A stretch of DNA of 64,000 nt. Origin: a virus. The stretch is taken from positions 1-64,000 of the IMG/VR virus record IMGVR_UViG_3300044994_000320. One strand, given 5' to 3'. Both the position numbers and the translations under genes were made by a program. The notes below the pieces were generated by a model that made no database searches, was not told the DNA's origin, and worked only from the letters and a program-made list of their open reading frames with translations. Shown one piece after another: positions 1 through 7,705 of this stretch (the first letter of the stretch is position 1; the number at the start of each line of letters is the position of its first letter).

Positions 1-1035
1 CTCGAACGGTTATACGCAGCCGCAAAAAAATTCGGCTTTCGAGTTATTCCTAACCCTAATGCGCTCCCTGACTACTACTCCAAACGCCTCGACTTCGACG
101 CCATCGTATCCCTGATAGAACCCCTCGCAGTCGGTAGTCATTACGACCGGGTCTATACGCACAGCCCTATTGGTGACGAAGGCAGGCATTGGCATCATCA
201 AGATGTTGCGCTCGCCGTATCCTGGCTTTTCAAAGATCGCGCCCGTTTTAGAATCCACGGGCTAAATACGCGAGGAGACAATTACGTGCTCAGCGCAGAT
301 ACCTACAAAGCCAAGATCGAAGCTCTGTATAGTGCTTACCCAGAAGAAACCGAAGAGTTTTCAGAGTGTTTCGCGTATTTCACCGAAGAAAGCGTCATAG
401 AATTGCCTTTTTATTTCGTCTGGCTCTTGTACGCCTGGCATTCAGAGATAAGCTTCGAAAGCAAGCTTATGAACAGTCACCCAGATTTTTCAGACACGTG
501 GAATATGCGTCAATCGCCATACGAAAACGCCAAACTTCAAAGGTACATCGGCGTGCTTAAAAATCTGCTCTCCGGTAAAGACTTTTCTGGTATAGAGTTC
601 GGCCCATATCTTGGTCTGTACTCGCGCAAATTTTTAGAAGAAGGTATCGTCAAACGCCTCTCTATGGTTGAGGTTTGCGATAAGCATTACCCCGATCTCA
701 TCCCGCTTGGTGAAGTCAAAAAGAACTTAGGTGATTTCCCACCTCAGCAATTTGACGTTGCTTTTTTCATGGAGGTAGTTTACTACTTCTCGAAAGAAGA
801 CTCAGAAAAAATCATCGAGTGGTTTAAGCGTAACGGGCTACCGCAGTACCTCGTTTTTTCTAACCCCCAAGAGTTTATGGATTTATTCATGTCTACTGAC
901 GCAGAATTCAAAGCCGCGTACAAGCTTATTGACTTAACCGAGATATCTTCTGAGTTCGAGTACAATTTCAGTCGCCCGGAGTTCTTGTTTCGTAGGAACA
1001 AGACTGCGCTATACATATACGAAAGATGCCAGTAA
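1..1035 (+). CDS. PIG-L/LmbE-like deacetylase fused to methyltransferase-like domain (5' partial)
   Basis: Frame 1 is open from the first base, so the N-terminus lies outside the window; the ATG-like codon at 286 is internal. Near residues 50-70 there is THSPIGDEGRHWHHQ, which resembles the metal-binding TH-P-GE-GH--H segment of PIG-L/LmbE N-acetylglucosamine deacetylases. After a linker, the C-terminal half carries GIEFGPYLGLYSRKF followed by an acidic strand and DVAFFMEVVYY, as in NodS-like SAM-dependent methyltransferases. It overlaps the next gene by 10 bp and heads a sugar-enzyme operon. Inferred role: deacetylation and methylation of a sugar on a phage or host glycan. The deacetylase match rests on one motif; the methyltransferase part is degenerate. 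Confidence 0.6.
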   Translation, partial: LERLYAAAKKFGFRVIPNPNALPDYYSKRLDFDAIVSLIEPLAVGSHYDRVYTHSPIGDEGRHWHHQDVALAVSWLFKDRARFRIHGLNTRGDNYVLSADTYKAKIEALYSAYPEETEEFSECFAYFTEESVIELPFYFVWLLYAWHSEISFESKLMNSHPDFSDTWNMRQSPYENAKLQRYIGVLKNLLSGKDFSGIEFGPYLGLYSRKFLEEGIVKRLSMVEVCDKHYPDLIPLGEVKKNLGDFPPQQFDVAFFMEVVYYFSKEDSEKIIEWFKRNGLPQYLVFSNPQEFMDLFMSTDAEFKAAYKLIDLTEISSEFEYNFSRPEFLFRRNKTALYIYERCQ

Positions 1036-2030
1036 TTTTTGACTGCTCTTTCATAAAAGAGCAATGGAAAAAAGACCTTATCAAGTCTTTGAAGCGATCG
1101 TTTCCGCGGTCGCTTTTGATTTCTACCGGGAACTTCCATTCAGACTTTTCTGCCTTGCGTCTCGCGCATCGTAATAACCCGACTGCGACAATCGTGTACC
1201 TATCTGACTACGATTGCCCAGACGTTTTGGCTTTTAGGCATCGAGTAAAGAAATCAGGCAAAGCTAAGCAGATCGCGTTTAACCATGGCTTTACTTTTAA
1301 TGGTTTTGAAACTCCTATGCCAAACGCTTCGTTGGAATACGAGCGCCGCATTATCGCTTCGGTAGACCTCATGTGTTTTAACTCTAATTTTGCTTATCGG
1401 ACTATGCAAGAAAGACATGAGGTTTCAACAAAAAATAGTGTAGTTCTTGGCTTGCCCGTGCATACCAAGTTCCCAAAAACAGTTTTCGGTTCTCGCTCAG
1501 GATTTCTGATTGCCTCACGTTTTACCGAAGTTAAAAACAGAAATCTGATAATCGCATTCGCGGAGATGTGCGTAGAAAAAAGAAAACCACTTACGATTTT
1601 AGCCAAGAATAAGTACAATAAAAACGACCATCGGGAACAAAGAAAGATACGCGCCGCTCTGGCCTACTTAAGGTATTTAGCGGATAAATCCGATTTAATA
1701 TGGCTAAAAGAGAATGCGCCAAGAAGAACATACCTGTCTTGTATGGTTAAGGCAAGTGCTTTTGTTGGCTTTCCTGCTATCGACACCTTGAATATCACAA
1801 TGGTAGAAGCTGCTATGGCTAAGACACTCCCGATATTCCCGAACAAAGCTCCGTACAACGAGTTTATCCCGGAGAATTGCCTCTATCGGCCATACGATTT
1901 ATCGCACATTTTTGAAATCGAAAAAAGCGTAAAACGTTCTGACGAGTCTACTTACGGCTATGCCGCGTCGTTTACGCCAGAGGCTTTTGAGTCTTCCGTT
2001 AAGGAGGCGTTTTGTGATTTTATTCGTTAA
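1026..2030 (+). CDS. GT-B-like glycosyltransferase
   Basis: 334 aa. The start ATG lies within the end of the preceding gene, so the two are translationally coupled. The C-terminal half has the layout of GT-B (GT4-like) transferases: GSRSGFLIASRFTEVKNRN resembles the start of the donor-binding domain, and DTLNITMVEAAMAKTLPIFP resembles the E-x7-E nucleotide-sugar region, with Asp in place of the first Glu. It is related in layout to the next gene (DTLSVSAIQAAMLG...P). The sugar donor and acceptor cannot be read from sequence. It probably acts with the deacetylase-methyltransferase upstream and the other transferases downstream. Confidence 0.6.
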   Translation: MPVIFDCSFIKEQWKKDLIKSLKRSFPRSLLISTGNFHSDFSALRLAHRNNPTATIVYLSDYDCPDVLAFRHRVKKSGKAKQIAFNHGFTFNGFETPMPNASLEYERRIIASVDLMCFNSNFAYRTMQERHEVSTKNSVVLGLPVHTKFPKTVFGSRSGFLIASRFTEVKNRNLIIAFAEMCVEKRKPLTILAKNKYNKNDHREQRKIRAALAYLRYLADKSDLIWLKENAPRRTYLSCMVKASAFVGFPAIDTLNITMVEAAMAKTLPIFPNKAPYNEFIPENCLYRPYDLSHIFEIEKSVKRSDESTYGYAASFTPEAFESSVKEAFCDFIR

Positions 2031-3045
2031 GATCCCCGGCTATTCTGGTTGGGCGCGGTCTTTAATCGAGTGCCTTGAAGCAATGTTTTCAGACTTTGAA
2101 AAAAAGTGCGGCACTAAAGTCGTCAGAATTGGTGGAGGCTCGATAGAGGAGTTACATAGCAGTCTCGCCTGTCTTGACCCAAAAGATTTCAAAGCCGTGT
2201 GGTGTTGCCACGACGCGGAAACTAAGCCTGTGCACGATTTTAGATTGCGTGTTGCACAAGCAAAAGGAGTTTCTGTTGCGCACAACCATAATTTAATAAA
2301 GAACCCATACGAACCGTTCTTCGTTTACGAAAAAATTGTAGGCTACAACCCGCACGCTTCTTTGACGCACCTTTTTGTGAACGCTCCGTATATTACGGCG
2401 TCCGCTGAAATTTCGACCGTGTTAAACCCAGTACCCGTTAATGCCCCTACGCCAGAGTATCTGAAAGGATTTGGCAGCCGTTCTTTCGATGCCCTATTCG
2501 GTGCGCGTTTTGCCGAAGATAAAAATAGGTTTCTAGCTGTAAAATTCATAGAGTCAGCACTTAGCCAAGACCCAGAGTTAAGAATCGGGTTCGCGTTTCC
2601 CCCACTTGCTAAGTGGCATAGAGATCGCCCAGACGTAGAAGACTACGATTATCACCGGTGTATGCAAGCCGTTGAGTACCTTACAGACCTCGGCGTAGCC
2701 GTCTTCCCTGATTGTGAAGAATCCGCGTTTTTAGAATTGCTTGCGCGGTCTAAAACGTATTTTTCTTTCGGTATGCAGGACACACTCAGTGTCTCCGCCA
2801 TACAAGCTGCTATGCTCGGGTGCCACCCGTTGTACCCCGATATGTTGCCCTACAATACTTTTTTACCAAAAGAGTATCTGTATCCAGCTTTCGATTTTTC
2901 GGCCCTTTTTGACAAAATTTCAGAATATAAGTCAGATCAAAAAGAAGCGCCAGAAGAAAAAATAGACACCGCCTTTTATCGGCCAAGCGCATTTATAGAG
3001 AGGAGCACACAATTCTTATGGCAAACCATAGCGCCATTGATGTAG
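2014..3045 (+). CDS. GT-B-like glycosyltransferase, paralogous to its neighbour
   Basis: 343 aa from a GTG at 2014, chosen because AAGGAGG lies 6 nt upstream; it overlaps the preceding gene by 17 bp. The C-terminal donor domain shows RSFDALFGARFAEDKNR and then QDTLSVSAIQAAMLGCHPLYP, aligning with FLIASRFTEVKNR and DTLNITMVEAAMAKTLPIFP of the upstream gene. The two probably arose by duplication and then diverged strongly. The catalytic E-x7-E glutamates are not conserved (D and Q instead), so it may be a divergent or non-catalytic subunit. The substrate is unknown. Confidence 0.55.
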   Translation: MILFVKIPGYSGWARSLIECLEAMFSDFEKKCGTKVVRIGGGSIEELHSSLACLDPKDFKAVWCCHDAETKPVHDFRLRVAQAKGVSVAHNHNLIKNPYEPFFVYEKIVGYNPHASLTHLFVNAPYITASAEISTVLNPVPVNAPTPEYLKGFGSRSFDALFGARFAEDKNRFLAVKFIESALSQDPELRIGFAFPPLAKWHRDRPDVEDYDYHRCMQAVEYLTDLGVAVFPDCEESAFLELLARSKTYFSFGMQDTLSVSAIQAAMLGCHPLYPDMLPYNTFLPKEYLYPAFDFSALFDKISEYKSDQKEAPEEKIDTAFYRPSAFIERSTQFLWQTIAPLM

Positions 3046-3722
3046 TAATAAATAGCGATGGAGAAAAAGACCTTGCCGTTGCTTTAAGCCCTTTTTTGTA
3101 CGAAGAGAAAAGAAATGTCCATGTTTTTTTCTCATGGCCGAAAGAAAAAAAGCCAAATCACGATAATATCCTTTCGATGATGTTTGCAGTAAAAAGATTC
3201 CAGAATGTGTTTTTTCATTTTGATAGGCCTAAAAAAAACTGGGATATGCTTACGTCCAGAGAGCAGGCGCTAAAACACGCAAAAACAGACACCGTCCTCA
3301 TATTGGACTCCGATGTGTACTTACGTCCAGGAGAAATAGACCGCATGGCCGCGTATAAAGAGCACGCAGGTGTTGGCTGGGTTACAGATAAATTATGTAT
3401 TCCAAAAGACTCTCAGTATGACCGAGTAGCTCAGTGCTCATGTTTGTTAATTGATCGAAATAAAGCACTAAGAGCCATCAGTCAGCTTCCAGTGAAAGAA
3501 CGCGCTATTTTTAGAAATGGTCTCGAAGATAGCTTTATCACTTTTTCCATGCGCGGAGCGTTTATTAGTAACTTGGCTTTCACGCATTATGAGGACATAA
3601 AAAAGTGGTACAAGCAAATCAACGTAAAAAAGGCCCTCAAAACGTCTCACCCGGTGTTAAAGCCTTTGCTGCAATATATCTACGAACGGGAAAGAAGCGT
3701 TTGGGATAAGAGGAAAAAATGA
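3018..3722 (+). CDS. GT-A-like (GT2-type) glycosyltransferase
   Basis: 234 aa, overlapping the previous gene by 28 bp. TVLILDSDVYL near residues 92-102 looks like the metal- and nucleotide-sugar-binding DxD of GT-A enzymes. The later NGLEDSFITFSM segment resembles the acceptor or catalytic ED region of GT2-like proteins. The start is preceded by the purine-rich stretch GAGAGGAGCAC. It is the only GT-A-type protein in this operon and ends 4 bp into the next gene (ATGA overlap). Acceptor unknown. Confidence 0.6.
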   Translation: MANHSAIDVVINSDGEKDLAVALSPFLYEEKRNVHVFFSWPKEKKPNHDNILSMMFAVKRFQNVFFHFDRPKKNWDMLTSREQALKHAKTDTVLILDSDVYLRPGEIDRMAAYKEHAGVGWVTDKLCIPKDSQYDRVAQCSCLLIDRNKALRAISQLPVKERAIFRNGLEDSFITFSMRGAFISNLAFTHYEDIKKWYKQINVKKALKTSHPVLKPLLQYIYERERSVWDKRKK

Positions 3723-4756
3723 TATTCCAGATTCCTATAGAGCCTCTCGAAGAGCGTTACTCTTCGCAATGGGAAAGGTGGTTCAGCGCTTTCTTCGATA
3801 AGCATGACGTGCCGTATCAGAATATCCCCGGCTCAATACTTCGCGGCGAAATAAAAGATGGTGCTTTTCTCGATGCGTTCAACACGAACTACTGGAAAAG
3901 TGCGCAGCTCAAAAACATTATCGAGCTTTTAGAAAAAGGCGAAATCCGTGACGGTGACGTGCTCTTTTTTCATGATCTTTGGTTTCCTGGTATAGAGCAG
4001 CTTGCGTACATACGAGATGTTACAAAGAAAAAGTTTCGCATCGCTGGGTACTTGCATGCAGGTACGTGGGATGCTTACGACTTCCTTACGAGGCATCTAA
4101 CCCCTTGGGTTACGTCTTTCGAGCAAATGCTTATGGATGTAGTCGATGTTGTTATGCTTGGGTCAAATTTTCACGCCGGACTTATATCTGCCGCGTTTCC
4201 AGCTTACAGCAAAAAATTGAATGTTATTGGCTTGCCTTTTAATTTCTTAGAAATTGTTCCCAGTCCAGAAATGTCGATACCAGCGTTGGCCCACGATACC
4301 ACTTTTACTATCGTTTTTCCGCACAGGCTGGATCAGGAAAAAAGACCAGAACTTTTCGACTCACTAAAAAACTACGCTCCGTTGCAAGATTATGCTTTCG
4401 TAAAAACGCGAGATTACTGGAACGGGTATAAGCAAGACTACTACGATCTGCTGTCTACTTGCACTCTTGCAGTATCTTTTGCTAAGCAAGAGACTTTCGG
4501 CATTGCTATGGTTGAAGCTGCGATTTTAGGGTGTCTGCCTGTTTTGCCTAAAGCCCTGGCTTACCCAGATGTATGGCCGCAAGAAGGCCCACTTTGGTAC
4601 ACCGATGTCGCGCAAGTAAAAGAGATTCTTTCAAGCTATTTAAGGAGCTTTAACGCTAAAGAACACAAAAAGCGTTTGTCTATTTGCACAAGCCATCTAC
4701 GTGCAAATTATTCTCTACAGACTGTAGGAGAAAAAGTGTTGCGTTTACTGCTATGA
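3719..4756 (+). CDS. GT4-family glycosyltransferase
   Basis: 345 aa. This is the clearest glycosyltransferase here: FTIVFPHRLDQEKRPELF matches the start of the GT4 donor domain, and KQETFGIAMVEAAILGCLPVLP is the classical E-x7-E motif with both glutamates present. The N-terminal half contains VLFFHDLWFPGIEQL and FRIAGYLHAGTWD, typical of the acceptor-side Rossmann domain. ATGA overlaps join it to the gene before and to the dpdA-like gene after, so sugar transfer and base modification enzymes share one transcript. Donor and acceptor are unknown. Confidence 0.8.
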   Translation: MIFQIPIEPLEERYSSQWERWFSAFFDKHDVPYQNIPGSILRGEIKDGAFLDAFNTNYWKSAQLKNIIELLEKGEIRDGDVLFFHDLWFPGIEQLAYIRDVTKKKFRIAGYLHAGTWDAYDFLTRHLTPWVTSFEQMLMDVVDVVMLGSNFHAGLISAAFPAYSKKLNVIGLPFNFLEIVPSPEMSIPALAHDTTFTIVFPHRLDQEKRPELFDSLKNYAPLQDYAFVKTRDYWNGYKQDYYDLLSTCTLAVSFAKQETFGIAMVEAAILGCLPVLPKALAYPDVWPQEGPLWYTDVAQVKEILSSYLRSFNAKEHKKRLSICTSHLRANYSLQTVGEKVLRLLL

Positions 4757-6153
4757 AACTATTTCTTTCAGGCGCAGAAAATCAAAAAGCATTCGGTACT
4801 ATCACGCATATAAAGCACCCGTATGTGCTTATGTCTTTCCTTTATCTGAGAAAAAAGAAAACCACGCTCGAACAGTACCTTGATAAAGCTGGATATGACA
4901 TGAAGTTTATGATCGATTCTGGCGCGCACTCTTTTATTGATAACGGCGTTGCGCACTCTTTGAAATCCCAGAACCCTCAAAATGACGTTATGCGCTTTAT
5001 CGACGAGTATCTAACGTTTTTAGATCGTAATAAAAAGTTCATTGATTTGGCGGTAGAGTTAGACTTGCAACGTGCCCCGTGGGATTTAGACAAAGACCCA
5101 GAAGACCATGTAGGCTTCGATATTGTACGAAAATGGCGCCAAGAGATTTTCTCTAAACTAGACCTCGGTTTTCCGATCATATTTGTGAATCACGAAGAGC
5201 CATGGGAAGAAACCGCCTCATACGGGAAATTCATAGGACTATCCGCTACCAAAGAACACCAGAGAGCCTATGGCAAAGTTTTTACTCTCGCAAAAAAGCT
5301 TAATATCGGCGTTCACGGTTTTGCCGTTACTGGTAAAGAAATAAAGCGCTTACCTTTTACCACGGTTGACTCGACTTCATGGCTTTCCGGTAACCGTTTT
5401 GGTGTAACATACTGGTTTCGAGGTTCGTCGATGCTTACCATCGACAAAAACTACAAGCACCGTCGTCGCGCTATGAAAAAAGAGTGCGAAGATTACGGCA
5501 TTGATCATAAATTATTGATGGAAGATGACGATGACGCTATCATGCTGTGGAATGCGTATCAGTGGAAAAAGTACGCAAACTGGGTAGAACAAAGGTGGAC
5601 TAAGATGTCAGGAACAGGCACTCATCACGTATTCGAAGAGTTCGACAAAGAGAAACAAGAGTCAGAGGGTATTTTAGCAGGCATTGATGACCCGCCCCAA
5701 GAGAGCGCCCACGCGAACTCAGACCCCGTACAGGAAGCCGAAGACCTTCCGGTAGCCGCTACACGCGTTCCGACAACAGGGATCACCATCAGTTTGGACA
5801 ATAACCCTATCGATAACCTACGCTGTGCTAATTGCTATATTCAGGAAACCTGCCCCGCGTTTAATCCGGCCCCAGACGCTACCTGCAGCATTTCTGTAGA
5901 CCTTAAGATCGAAACCGGTGACGATTACGTGAAGCTCGTGAACAAAGTTATCGAAATCCAGTCTGAACGCGTTTTGCGCGGAAGAATGGCCGAAAGACAA
6001 GATGGCGGTTTACCAGATAAAACACTGTCAGGAGAGCTTAACTTGCTTTTAGACATGATTGCTAAAAGCAAAGAGATATTTGACACGCGCGATTCTCTTG
6101 TCATCAAGGCAAAGGGCAAGGGCATCTTGTCCAAAATTTTTGCCGGCAAATAG
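4753..6153 (+). CDS. dpdA: DpdA-like base transglycosylase (TGT fold) with Cys-rich C-terminal extension
   Basis: 466 aa from the ATG at 4753, which overlaps the preceding stop (ATGA). FMIDSGAHSF (Asp55) and HGFAVTGKEI...TTVDSTSW (Asp206) are the hallmark blocks of phage DpdA proteins. These are relatives of tRNA-guanine transglycosylase that exchange guanine in DNA for a 7-deazaguanine; the two Asp are the expected catalytic residues. After residue 285 an acidic linker leads to a second domain with Cys358, Cys361, Cys367 and Cys378 (CANCYIQETC...C) and a helical tail ending GILSKIFAGK. This extension is not part of the standard enzyme and may bind metal. A queD-like gene lies 370 bp downstream. 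The enzyme family is fairly secure; the role of the extension is unknown. Confidence 0.8.
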   Translation: MKLFLSGAENQKAFGTITHIKHPYVLMSFLYLRKKKTTLEQYLDKAGYDMKFMIDSGAHSFIDNGVAHSLKSQNPQNDVMRFIDEYLTFLDRNKKFIDLAVELDLQRAPWDLDKDPEDHVGFDIVRKWRQEIFSKLDLGFPIIFVNHEEPWEETASYGKFIGLSATKEHQRAYGKVFTLAKKLNIGVHGFAVTGKEIKRLPFTTVDSTSWLSGNRFGVTYWFRGSSMLTIDKNYKHRRRAMKKECEDYGIDHKLLMEDDDDAIMLWNAYQWKKYANWVEQRWTKMSGTGTHHVFEEFDKEKQESEGILAGIDDPPQESAHANSDPVQEAEDLPVAATRVPTTGITISLDNNPIDNLRCANCYIQETCPAFNPAPDATCSISVDLKIETGDDYVKLVNKVIEIQSERVLRGRMAERQDGGLPDKTLSGELNLLLDMIAKSKEIFDTRDSLVIKAKGKGILSKIFAGK

Positions 6154-6164
6154 GAGTAACTAAA

Positions 6165-6512
6165 ATGGATACAAATATGAAAAGCCAGCGTAACTATCGC
6201 GATTCGGGTACGACAATGCGGTCACCTAATATCCCGGCAGTTACTGGTACAAAGTCAGCGCGGAACGGTGTGCAGAGCTCTTCAATCATCGATCCAACGC
6301 TGCGCGGTAATGGCGGTAATGCCGCTTCATACCGTGGATTGGGTAAAGAGGTCATGCTCACCCCAGTTGAAAAGTCAGGCCTTTGGGCCGGGCTCCGTCA
6401 GGGTGTCACGCATTTGGCCCCGGAAACTTCTAAGAATAAGCTGACTCCAGGTCAGGATGGCAGTACGTGGGACACCACACCTGCCGGCCATCGAGCCGCA
6501 GCAGGTTACTAA
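6165..6512 (+). CDS. Hypothetical protein between dpdA- and queD-like genes
   Basis: 115 aa with a good ribosome site (AGGAG about 8 nt before ATG). Rich in Gly, Ser, Thr and Asn, with no hydrophobic core, membrane segment or motif that I recognise. Its composition suggests a disordered or virion-associated protein. It lies 11 bp after the dpdA-like gene and 14 bp before the queD-like gene, so it is probably cotranscribed with them. Confidence 0.75.
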   Translation: MDTNMKSQRNYRDSGTTMRSPNIPAVTGTKSARNGVQSSSIIDPTLRGNGGNAASYRGLGKEVMLTPVEKSGLWAGLRQGVTHLAPETSKNKLTPGQDGSTWDTTPAGHRAAAGY

Positions 6513-6526
6513 AGCGAGAGGTAAGC

Positions 6527-7372
6527 GTGCGCCAGTCCATGTTTTACAAAAATCTTACGGTAGTTGATTTCGCCTATTTTACAGAAGCCGAGGGTCTCCG
6601 AGGAGAATCCCTTATCTGTAACGTTGAGCTTGTAGGCGAAGTCCCCAAAGATGGTATGATATTGGATTTCGGCAAAGCAAAAAAGATCATCAAATCCGTG
6701 ATTGACCAAAAAGTAGATCATACAGTCGTTTTGAACTCTAGATTTGCAAGGCTAAACGGTGATGGAACTGCAACAGTAGACACCCCGACGCACGCTTATA
6801 CCGCTCCATGCCCTGCATTTTGTTTCCTTGATACAGACTATTCTGTCGGCGCTCTAGAAGCGCACATTCAAAAAGTTATTCGAGAGGCGCTCAGAGAAGA
6901 CTCAAAAGTGTCTGAAGTTTCCGTCGCGCTTTTAGCAGAGCCTCTTCCACAAGGCAAAACCAGTTTTCAGTACACACACGGGCTAAAATTTCATGACGGG
7001 AATTGCCAACGTATTTGGCATGGTCATAGAAACACTGTTGATGTCTTCATAAACGGGCAACAAGACTACGAGCTTGAGCATAAGCTTGTCGCAACCATTC
7101 TTAAAGGTTCAGTGCACTTTGCAGAAAAAAGTGTTTTTCGCTCAGTAGGTGAAGATTATATGGTTGGCCAAGTAGAGTACACGTCATCCCAAGGAAAGTT
7201 TCACTCTCGTCTACCTATTCAGGAAATCATCGTTATGGATTGTGAGCCATCAATCGAAAATATCGCGTCTTTTCTTTTAGGATGCGTTGTTAAAATGGGA
7301 GCCAGCGGCCTTATCGAAGTCGTAGCTTACGAGGGTATCGGAAAAGGGGCAATAGCACGTACCCGAATTTGA
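6527..7372 (+). CDS. queD: QueD-like 6-carboxytetrahydropterin synthase family protein, two-domain type
   Basis: 281 aa from GTG at 6527, chosen because GAGAGG sits 6 nt upstream; the ATG at 6539 has no such site. The N-terminal half has GESLICNVELVGE and GMILDFGKAKKIIKSVID-VDH, the second conserved block of PTPS/QueD. The C-terminal half has THGLKFHDGNCQRIWHGHRN (His151, Cys160, His165, His167), matching the zinc histidines and active-site Cys of QueD. This order, at about 280 aa against about 120 for ordinary QueD, fits the two-domain form I associate with Gammaproteobacteria. The expected reaction makes 6-carboxy-tetrahydropterin, an early step towards preQ0. No folE, queE or queC is seen in the window, so other steps must be encoded elsewhere or by the host. 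Confidence 0.8.
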   Translation: MRQSMFYKNLTVVDFAYFTEAEGLRGESLICNVELVGEVPKDGMILDFGKAKKIIKSVIDQKVDHTVVLNSRFARLNGDGTATVDTPTHAYTAPCPAFCFLDTDYSVGALEAHIQKVIREALREDSKVSEVSVALLAEPLPQGKTSFQYTHGLKFHDGNCQRIWHGHRNTVDVFINGQQDYELEHKLVATILKGSVHFAEKSVFRSVGEDYMVGQVEYTSSQGKFHSRLPIQEIIVMDCEPSIENIASFLLGCVVKMGASGLIEVVAYEGIGKGAIARTRI

Positions 7373-7390
7373 CGTGTTTTTGGAGCATTT

Positions 7391-7477
7391 CTAACCACCC
7401 CCTACCACCCCCTTACCACCCCTACCACCCCCCTACCACCCCCCTTACCACCCCTTACCACCCCCCCCCCCCTACCA
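7391..7477 (+). repeat. C-rich tandem repeat (TACCACCCC-type units)
   Basis: About eight imperfect units of TACCACCCC/CCTTACCACC occupy 87 bp straight after queD, including a run of twelve C near 7461-7472. The minus strand therefore carries many spaced G4-G5 runs, compatible with G-quadruplex formation. An open frame runs through it (Pro-Tyr-His repeats) but has no ribosome site and is almost certainly not a gene. Confidence 0.85.
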
Positions 7478-7482
7478 AAAAT

Positions 7483-7543
7483 AACAAAAATAACAAAAAT
7501 CACTTTACAAAATATCTCACCCTTTTTACACTACCCCTAACCA
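7483..7543 (+). repeat. Dispersed AT-rich element, copy 1
   Basis: AACAAAAATAACAAAAAT, then CACTTTACA, a pyrimidine-rich stretch and CTAACCA. The same order of words recurs at 63457-63515. Both copies follow the end of a long operon and precede a new gene group. Just after this copy a small hairpin (CACCCC/GGGGTG, 7542-7562) has an A-rich loop but no T tract. A transcription or replication role is possible but unproven. Confidence 0.65.
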
Positions 7544-7705
7544 CCCCATAAAAAACGGGGTGCAAAAAGTCCCTAAAAAATGGGCCACCAAAAAATCCTA
7601 CCTTAACAGGTCGGGCGCTGCGGGAGCAGACTTGGGGGCAACGAGCTCACTTTTCCCACAACAAAAGTACGGAAGCAGTCGGGAGGCCGGCGGGCGACAT
7701 AGTTG

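Follow-up and report, generated by a model that had tools for sequence, protein, structure and literature searches.

We report that an operon in a 64,000-nucleotide stretch of virus DNA (bases 1-64,000 of the 87,211-base record IMGVR_UViG_3300044994_000320; hereafter the window) quite probably directs, as read from its sequence, the biosynthesis of a 7-deazaguanine that carries a sugar, probably an amino sugar, in the phage's own DNA. Its core is a conserved module made up of a GT4-family glycosyltransferase (GT4), a small QueD-like protein (hereafter qD141) and a DpdA-type guanine transglycosylase, found in records that hold no QueC. The core gene pair recurs in some hundred further phage genomes.

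Conservation of the neighbourhood was a test set beforehand, and it proved strongly positive in two scan directions, with DpdA and with GT4 as the query. A scan of viral contigs with a DpdA alignment yielded 80 loci, 28 of which carry a GT4 homologue recognized by a hidden Markov model (HMM); qD141 is also present in 23 of these 28, and the usual order in the GT4-bearing loci is QueE-FolE-qD141-GT4-DpdA. The converse scan with a GT4 alignment, a query containing no DpdA, likewise yielded 80 loci, among which this DpdA type occurs in 68, qD141 in 76, FolE in 67 and QueE in 61, with no locus devoid of all four; the GT4 query was made from DpdA-linked sequences, the two locus sets share about ten contigs and the records are not fully independent. 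Four of the 12 loci without this DpdA type were checked and carry another TGT-type protein (DSGGFQ), and several of the 12 end near GT4. The GT4 and DpdA reading frames lie at most 100 base pairs apart in 42 of the 66 loci measured, and are adjacent or overlapping in most. Distance correlations over 56 loci, to which untrimmed reading frames add noise, support the linkage weakly: they are just above all shuffles for DpdA-GT4 (r=0.37) and qD141-GT4 (r=0.38) and not above them for the FolE and QueE pairs. By the two scans it is strongly supported that the clustering of GT4 with DpdA is far from incidental.

The overlapping operon claimed in a preliminary description of the window is real, and the overlaps of 10, 17, 28, 4 and 4 base pairs are exact, the 17-base-pair one with a GTG start at 2014. 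The operon is longer than the part within the window. The contig ends share a 187-base-pair overlap with one mismatch, which makes a closed or end-redundant contig probable, and gene 1, the first of the window, is cut by the contig start at window base 1: it begins at record base 86,872, with its N-terminal part at the opposite contig end. Upstream it runs on across the contig ends, and the whole order is QueE, hyp92, hyp194, RuvC, SpoVS-like, FolE, qD141, GT-A1, gene 1 with its PIG-L domain, GT_b, GT_c, GT2, GT4, DpdA, a 115-residue protein and a tandem QueD. The 13 successive genes from RuvC to QueD are spaced by -28 to +11 base pairs, and the operon genes neighbour DNA-metabolism genes, with the structural genes lying elsewhere. 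Promoter and terminator scans gave chance-level results only, and base composition marks no island.

The DpdA-like transglycosylase named in that description matches phrog_887 at 4.2e-41 and is homologous to the DpdA of phage Bipper, itself homologous to the DpdA of the E. coli phage Seurat type. Among its TGT-type motifs, D55-S56-G57 (DSGA) is invariant in a six-sequence alignment and VDSTSW (D206) is kept in relatives, and the enzyme would be expected to put a 7-deazaguanine into phage DNA. As a single query, the window DpdA finds no relative in viral contigs, and a distant alignment query was needed. A DpdA frame in another locus (L008:14839-17079) contains a large in-frame, intein-like insertion amid the second catalytic motif. 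The proposed QueD-like enzyme is supported by matches to PF01242 (1.6e-14) and, under its curated cut-off, to TIGR03367 (3.7e-14); the protein consists of two parts, has about 280 residues and is related to a long QueD of Vibrio phage KVP40, and its C-terminal half retains NCQRIWHGH. FolE, QueD and QueE of the preQ0 pathway are all encoded.

QueC is the missing member of that pathway: searched at E<=1, the 87.2-kb record gives no match to PF06508, a model that does find matches in each of 14 control genomes. Searches of whole records detected QueC in none of the 17 GT4-DpdA records of a first set and in none of the 50 of a second (0/67 together), as against its presence in 26/30 other DpdA records, among which sit two GT4-bearing records with QueC, L011 and L014 (Fisher p ~1e-19, relatedness ignored). 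Given this absence from the GT4 records, the base that accepts the sugar is probably derived from 7-carboxy-7-deazaguanine (CDG) and not from preQ0. No qD141 was detected in the QueC-keeping, GT4-bearing relatives L011, L014 and PhiXhv-12, which, together with the 67 GT4 records that do without QueC, suggests that qD141 and QueC substitute for one another. The qD141 protein itself matches PF01242 weakly (0.021), and its profile matches PH0634, of the QueD/PTPS type, along the full length at 0.0087. In the aligned family the zinc-site His and Glu are conserved and the catalytic Cys and Asp-His of QueD are absent, as compared with E. coli QueD. We infer from these features that qD141 may bind a pterin- or deazaguanine-like substrate and handle CDG.

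Two variations of the qD141 neighbourhood were seen in other phages. Many phages have, between qD141 and GT4, a conserved radical SAM protein some 440 residues long, as in L096 (6685-8001) and the same slot of L097, L098, L101, L106, L112, L115, L125 and L128; it could build the sugar acceptor. The corresponding interval of the phage studied here contains no radical SAM protein. In Rhizobium phage RHph_I1_18 (L187, 5971-7232), where no GT4 homologue was found, qD141 adjoins FolE and a macro-domain (Appr-1-p processing) gene, a neighbourhood that perhaps makes a different decoration.

All the glycosyltransferases claimed in the window are borne out, GT2 by PF00535 and GT4, GT_b and GT_c as members of one GT-B/GT4 family by HMM. 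GT2 matches PF00535 at 5.6e-6, over the curated cut-off and as the only PF00535 match of the record. The GT4-homologue HMM recognizes GT_b at 1.9e-18 and GT_c at 2e-16, a second such model does so at 2.6e-11 and 2.1e-16, respectively, the two paralogues match each other at 3e-17, and GT_b has a further match to PF13439 at 0.011. Every GT4-profile and PF00535 match of the record falls inside the operon. For GT4 itself the Pfam matches are weak, and the family profile matches solved GT-B enzymes. RY, R203 and E266 are invariant in a 27-row alignment, and the donor-site motif of two spaced Glu residues (E-x7-E) is present as QETFGIAMVEA; it is altered in GT_b and GT_c. An AlphaFold2 model of GT4 built from 22 sequences adopts a GT-B fold with a predicted local distance difference test score (pLDDT) of 90.9. 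The nearest folds in the PDB are MshA and BshA (MshA 3c4q, E 2.7e-13, template modelling (TM) score 0.70), at an identity of only ~12-13%, and the confident GT4 model is also near the GT4 homologue of phage ACP17.

Gene 1 had been described as a deacetylase-methyltransferase fusion, and the first half of this description stands. Its N-terminal 113 residues match PF02585 (PIG-L) at 2.7e-9, and the frame joined across the contig ends holds AHPDDES with the motif AHPDDE. For the C-terminal half, Pfam, NCBIfam and the PDB yield nothing significant, its best S-adenosylmethionine-related match being CheR at 0.16; a single-sequence structure model reaches a pLDDT of only 40, and comparison with a methyltransferase-like protein of L012 gave no convincing match. 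A putative methyltransferase in this half is plausible but unproven. Gene 1 and GT-A1 have almost no relatives, most of the matches being to the PIG-L part in Xanthomonas and Erwinia phages. Because the nearest folds of GT4 are MshA and BshA, and PIG-L genes recur in the comparable clusters of L012, L014 and Xanthomonas phage PhiXhv-12, the pairing of GT4 with PIG-L fits a deacetylated amino sugar.

The module is also present in cultured phages. GT4 matches 20 of 50,697 phage records by tblastn and qD141 matches 21, 16 of which are within the 20 GT4 records, and each examined cultured-phage lineage with this GT4 has adjoining deazaguanine genes. QueE and qD141 stand beside GT4 in ACP17, PAC2 (PA5oct group), X1, BUCT-ZZ01 and Phosso, and FolE does so in four of these five. 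TGT motifs occur in a phrog_10773 protein of ACP17, X1 and BUCT-ZZ01, and DSGGFQ in a 540-residue protein of PAC2. The TGT nature of phrog_10773 is based on motifs (DSGGLQ, GGVAVG, SYDSTTHT) and one depositor's name, and its comparison with the DpdA alignment by hhalign was not significant. In PhiXhv-12 a 521-residue QueC-containing protein, probably Gat-QueC, lies side by side with PIG-L and GT4. No TGT was recognized beside GT4 in Phosso or PhiXhv-12, and linkage to DpdA is not supported there. Separately, bacterial chromosomes or prophages of Magnetospirillum (L179-L182), Aurantimonas (L185) and Pseudooctadecabacter (L186) carry GT4 together with qD141 and a TGT-type protein, or GT4 together with a VUT-like transporter, and are possibly a bacterial version of the module.

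These observations are consistent with a pathway in which FolE, QueD and QueE would convert guanosine triphosphate (GTP) to CDG, which, without QueC, the phage would not convert to preQ0. The small protein qD141 probably converts or delivers CDG, and DpdA would swap chosen DNA guanines for the resulting base. GT4 would attach the first sugar, most likely an N-acetylhexosamine (HexNAc) taken from a nucleotide sugar in the manner of MshA/BshA, either before or after insertion of the base; the sugar could, for example, be linked through the carboxylate of CDG as an acyl glycoside. The PIG-L domain would take off the acetyl group, and GT_b, GT_c and the two GT-A enzymes may lengthen a short glycan. 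The likely purpose would be protection against restriction and other DNA-targeting defences. The preliminary description had raised a glycosylated, perhaps deacetylated and methylated, 7-deazaguanine: conservation bears out the link between sugar genes and pathway and a deacetylated amino sugar fits, with the methylation left unsupported by the unproven methyltransferase.

The slot before dpdA holds differing sugar genes among phages with the same long DpdA type. In L011 it contains two GT4-like proteins, a glycerophosphotransferase-like protein and a GT2 with a weak match (2.5e-4) to PF20691, the TET-associated glycosyltransferase family; in L012, a GT2, a radical SAM protein, QueC, a GT4, two methyltransferase-like proteins and PIG-L; in L014, a radical SAM protein, QueC, a weak PIG-L, a GT4 and a GT-A-like protein; and in L146, qD141, a nucleotidyltransferase (NTP_transf_3), a GT4, a glycerophosphotransferase-like protein and a second GT4. 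The cassette of L018 (6354-9645), between FolE/QueC and DpdA, encodes a cytidylyltransferase-like protein (CTP_transf_like), a PfkB kinase and a GT9 of the heptosyltransferase family, which suggests a heptose-like sugar in another phage. A bolder version of our proposal, which we put forward tentatively and would not ourselves bet on, has up to five glycosyltransferases build, on a DNA base derived from CDG, a short glycan that includes an amino sugar, de-N-acetylated and perhaps N-methylated, the cassette before dpdA being swapped as in surface polysaccharide loci and qD141 replacing QueC for the acceptor; no purine-type base of DNA might have been found to bear a sugar before it.

Several points weigh against a glycosylated, CDG-derived base. 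Many DpdA phages have no glycosyltransferase: L013, L016, L017, L020 and L022 have QueC and DpdA, and no sugar gene was seen in them. Since sugar genes vary or are missing in this way, sugar addition is an optional layer over a common pathway and not general to DpdA phages. Conservation does not extend to the four extra sugar genes as a set, and no other record was found to hold the exact operon; GT_c is without part of the usual donor-site motif (QDTLSVSAIQA); a few GT4 homologues stand on bacterial chromosomes with no nearby DpdA (L183); and qD141 occurs in five cultured phages with no detected GT4 homologue. Finally, the host QueC could provide preQ0, and a phage without QueC is no proof of a CDG product.

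The last point underlies the alternative that survives best, that the glycosylated base is preQ0 or preQ1 made by host QueC/QueF and that qD141 is a regulator or a redundant QueD, with the remaining model unchanged. Most bacteria encode QueC, and L011, L012, L014, L018 and PhiXhv carry QueC plus sugar genes; we nevertheless consider this alternative unlikely, as FolE, QueD and QueE are kept and QueC alone is dropped in all 67 GT4 records, and qD141 was not found where QueC is kept. Much less probable is the suggestion, made in the preliminary description as its alternative, that the sugar enzymes serve a separate glycan and cluster with DpdA incidentally; the glycan would be one of the host surface or of a virion protein. 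Phage glycosyltransferases often act on such glycans, and the extra glycosyltransferase set does differ among relatives, but the core GT4 is accompanied by one or more of DpdA, qD141, FolE and QueE in 80/80 loci of the GT4 scan, as well as in cultured phages that infect several unrelated hosts, and the genes mutually overlap and sit among DNA-metabolism genes away from the structural genes. That GT4 instead glycosylates queuosine or a precursor in host transfer RNA (tRNA), like the eukaryotic tRNA-queuosine glycosyltransferases, would be in keeping with the queuosine mannosyl transferase, also a GT4-type enzyme, and we give it very little credence. Glycosylated queuosine does occur in tRNA (PMC12518689), but the operon's transglycosylase is a phage DpdA-type enzyme, from a family shown to insert 7-deazaguanines in DNA (PMC6884629), phages are without late queuosine genes (PMC6884629) and the record holds no QueC. 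Least credible is an action on 5-hydroxymethyl pyrimidines in T-even fashion, parallel to 7-deazaguanine, for which the weak similarity of the L011 GT2 to PF20691 and the presence of the S-TIM5 DNA alpha-GT among the fold matches (TM 0.58) might speak, because the record has no thymidylate-synthase/dCMP-hydroxymethylase family gene (no PF00303 match) and GT4 tracks DpdA and qD141.

The features of the operon are collected in Table 1.

Table 1 Features of the operon; positions are those of the window unless marked as record positions.
Feature	Position	Strand	Description and evidence
QueE	record 82,218-82,976		radical SAM match 1.9e-10
SpoVS-like gene	record 84,742-85,041 (= L003:17531-17830)		SpoVS (PF04232) 5.2e-18
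FolE	record 85,041-85,640		PF01227 5.1e-48
qD141	record 85,637-86,062		small QueD-like protein
GT-A1	record 86,059-86,871		GT-A-like protein
Gene 1, 3' part	1..1035	+	395 aa whole; N-terminal PIG-L de-N-acetylase, C-terminal domain identity uncertain
GT_b	1026..2030	+	GT4-family (GT-B) paralogue; GT4-family HMM
GT_c	2014..3045	+	GT4-family (GT-B) paralogue; GT4-family HMM
GT2	3018..3722	+	GT-A/GT2 glycosyltransferase with DSDV (DxD) motif; PF00535
GT4	3719..4756	+	core glycosyltransferase of the GT4-qD141-DpdA module; alignment, fold model, linkage
DpdA	4753..6153	+	DpdA-type guanine transglycosylase, Cys-rich C-terminal extension (CANC...CP...C); phrog_887
115-aa protein	6165..6512	+	operon-internal; no family match
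QueD	6527..7372	+	tandem QueD-like 6-carboxytetrahydropterin synthase; PF01242; start GTG 6527 or ATG 6539

The 115-residue protein has no family match in Pfam or PHROG searches and no homologue among the fetched loci. Right after the operon, window positions 7369-7551 are of low complexity and rich in proline codons (CCACC/TACCACC-like). A SpoVS-like (PF04232) gene lies near the deazaguanine genes in most long-DpdA phages (L003, L004, L006, L008, L011-L013, L015-L018, L020, L022, L026, L027 and L146).

The operon shares with the 7-deazaguanine modification systems of phages 9g, CAjan and Rosebush (PMC6884629) a DpdA-family transglycosylase clustered with FolE, QueD and QueE, and differs from them in lacking QueC and in adding qD141 and GT4, PIG-L, two GT4 paralogues and two GT-A enzymes. 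Mycobacterium phage Bipper, with DpdA, QueD, QueE and FolE, is likewise without QueC and might carry CDG according to the same 2019 paper, which does not mention glycosylation (PMC6884629); no GT4 or qD141 was found in the Bipper cluster. The T-even DNA glucosyltransferases and other phage DNA glycosyltransferases (PMC13216743) are alike in the functional idea of a sugar on a modified phage-DNA base, but these enzymes act on hydroxymethylated pyrimidines, whereas the pathway proposed here would have a deazapurine as its acceptor, and no member of the hydroxymethylase family turned up in the record. The parallel with queuosine drawn in the preliminary description is partial only: galactosyl- and mannosyl-queuosine of eukaryotic tRNA (PMC12518689) also carry a sugar on a 7-deazaguanine nucleoside, but in RNA and on a cyclopentene ring requiring enzymes not found in the operon, which encodes no QueC and whose base is probably CDG-derived. 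Mycothiol and bacillithiol synthesis (MshA-MshB and BshA-BshB) similarly employs a GT4 glycosyltransferase followed by a PIG-L de-N-acetylase; here, by contrast, the pair is linked to DpdA and deazaguanine genes, and no thiol-pathway gene was noticed, MshC and BshC not having been searched for.

All sugar-bearing DNA bases known to us are pyrimidines. Cui et al. reportedly described additional natural 7-deazaguanine derivatives of phage DNA in 2023, among them CDG, with a predicted CDG decarboxylase, and to our knowledge none of them is glycosylated; our literature search turned up no account of a 7-deazaguanine with a sugar in DNA. A conserved module tying a glycosyltransferase to guanine replacement would add a new class of DNA base and would explain the recurrent absence of QueC in these phages. 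It would also give a function to phrog_17812 and, by motif, to the TGT-type phrog_10773, both PHROG families without one. The core module is present in cultured phages, some of them grown on P. aeruginosa PAO1 and Synechococcus elongatus PCC 7942, so that a sugar-bearing guanine analogue is testable now, and the module would suggest a new phage means of evading restriction enzymes and CRISPR (clustered regularly interspaced short palindromic repeats).

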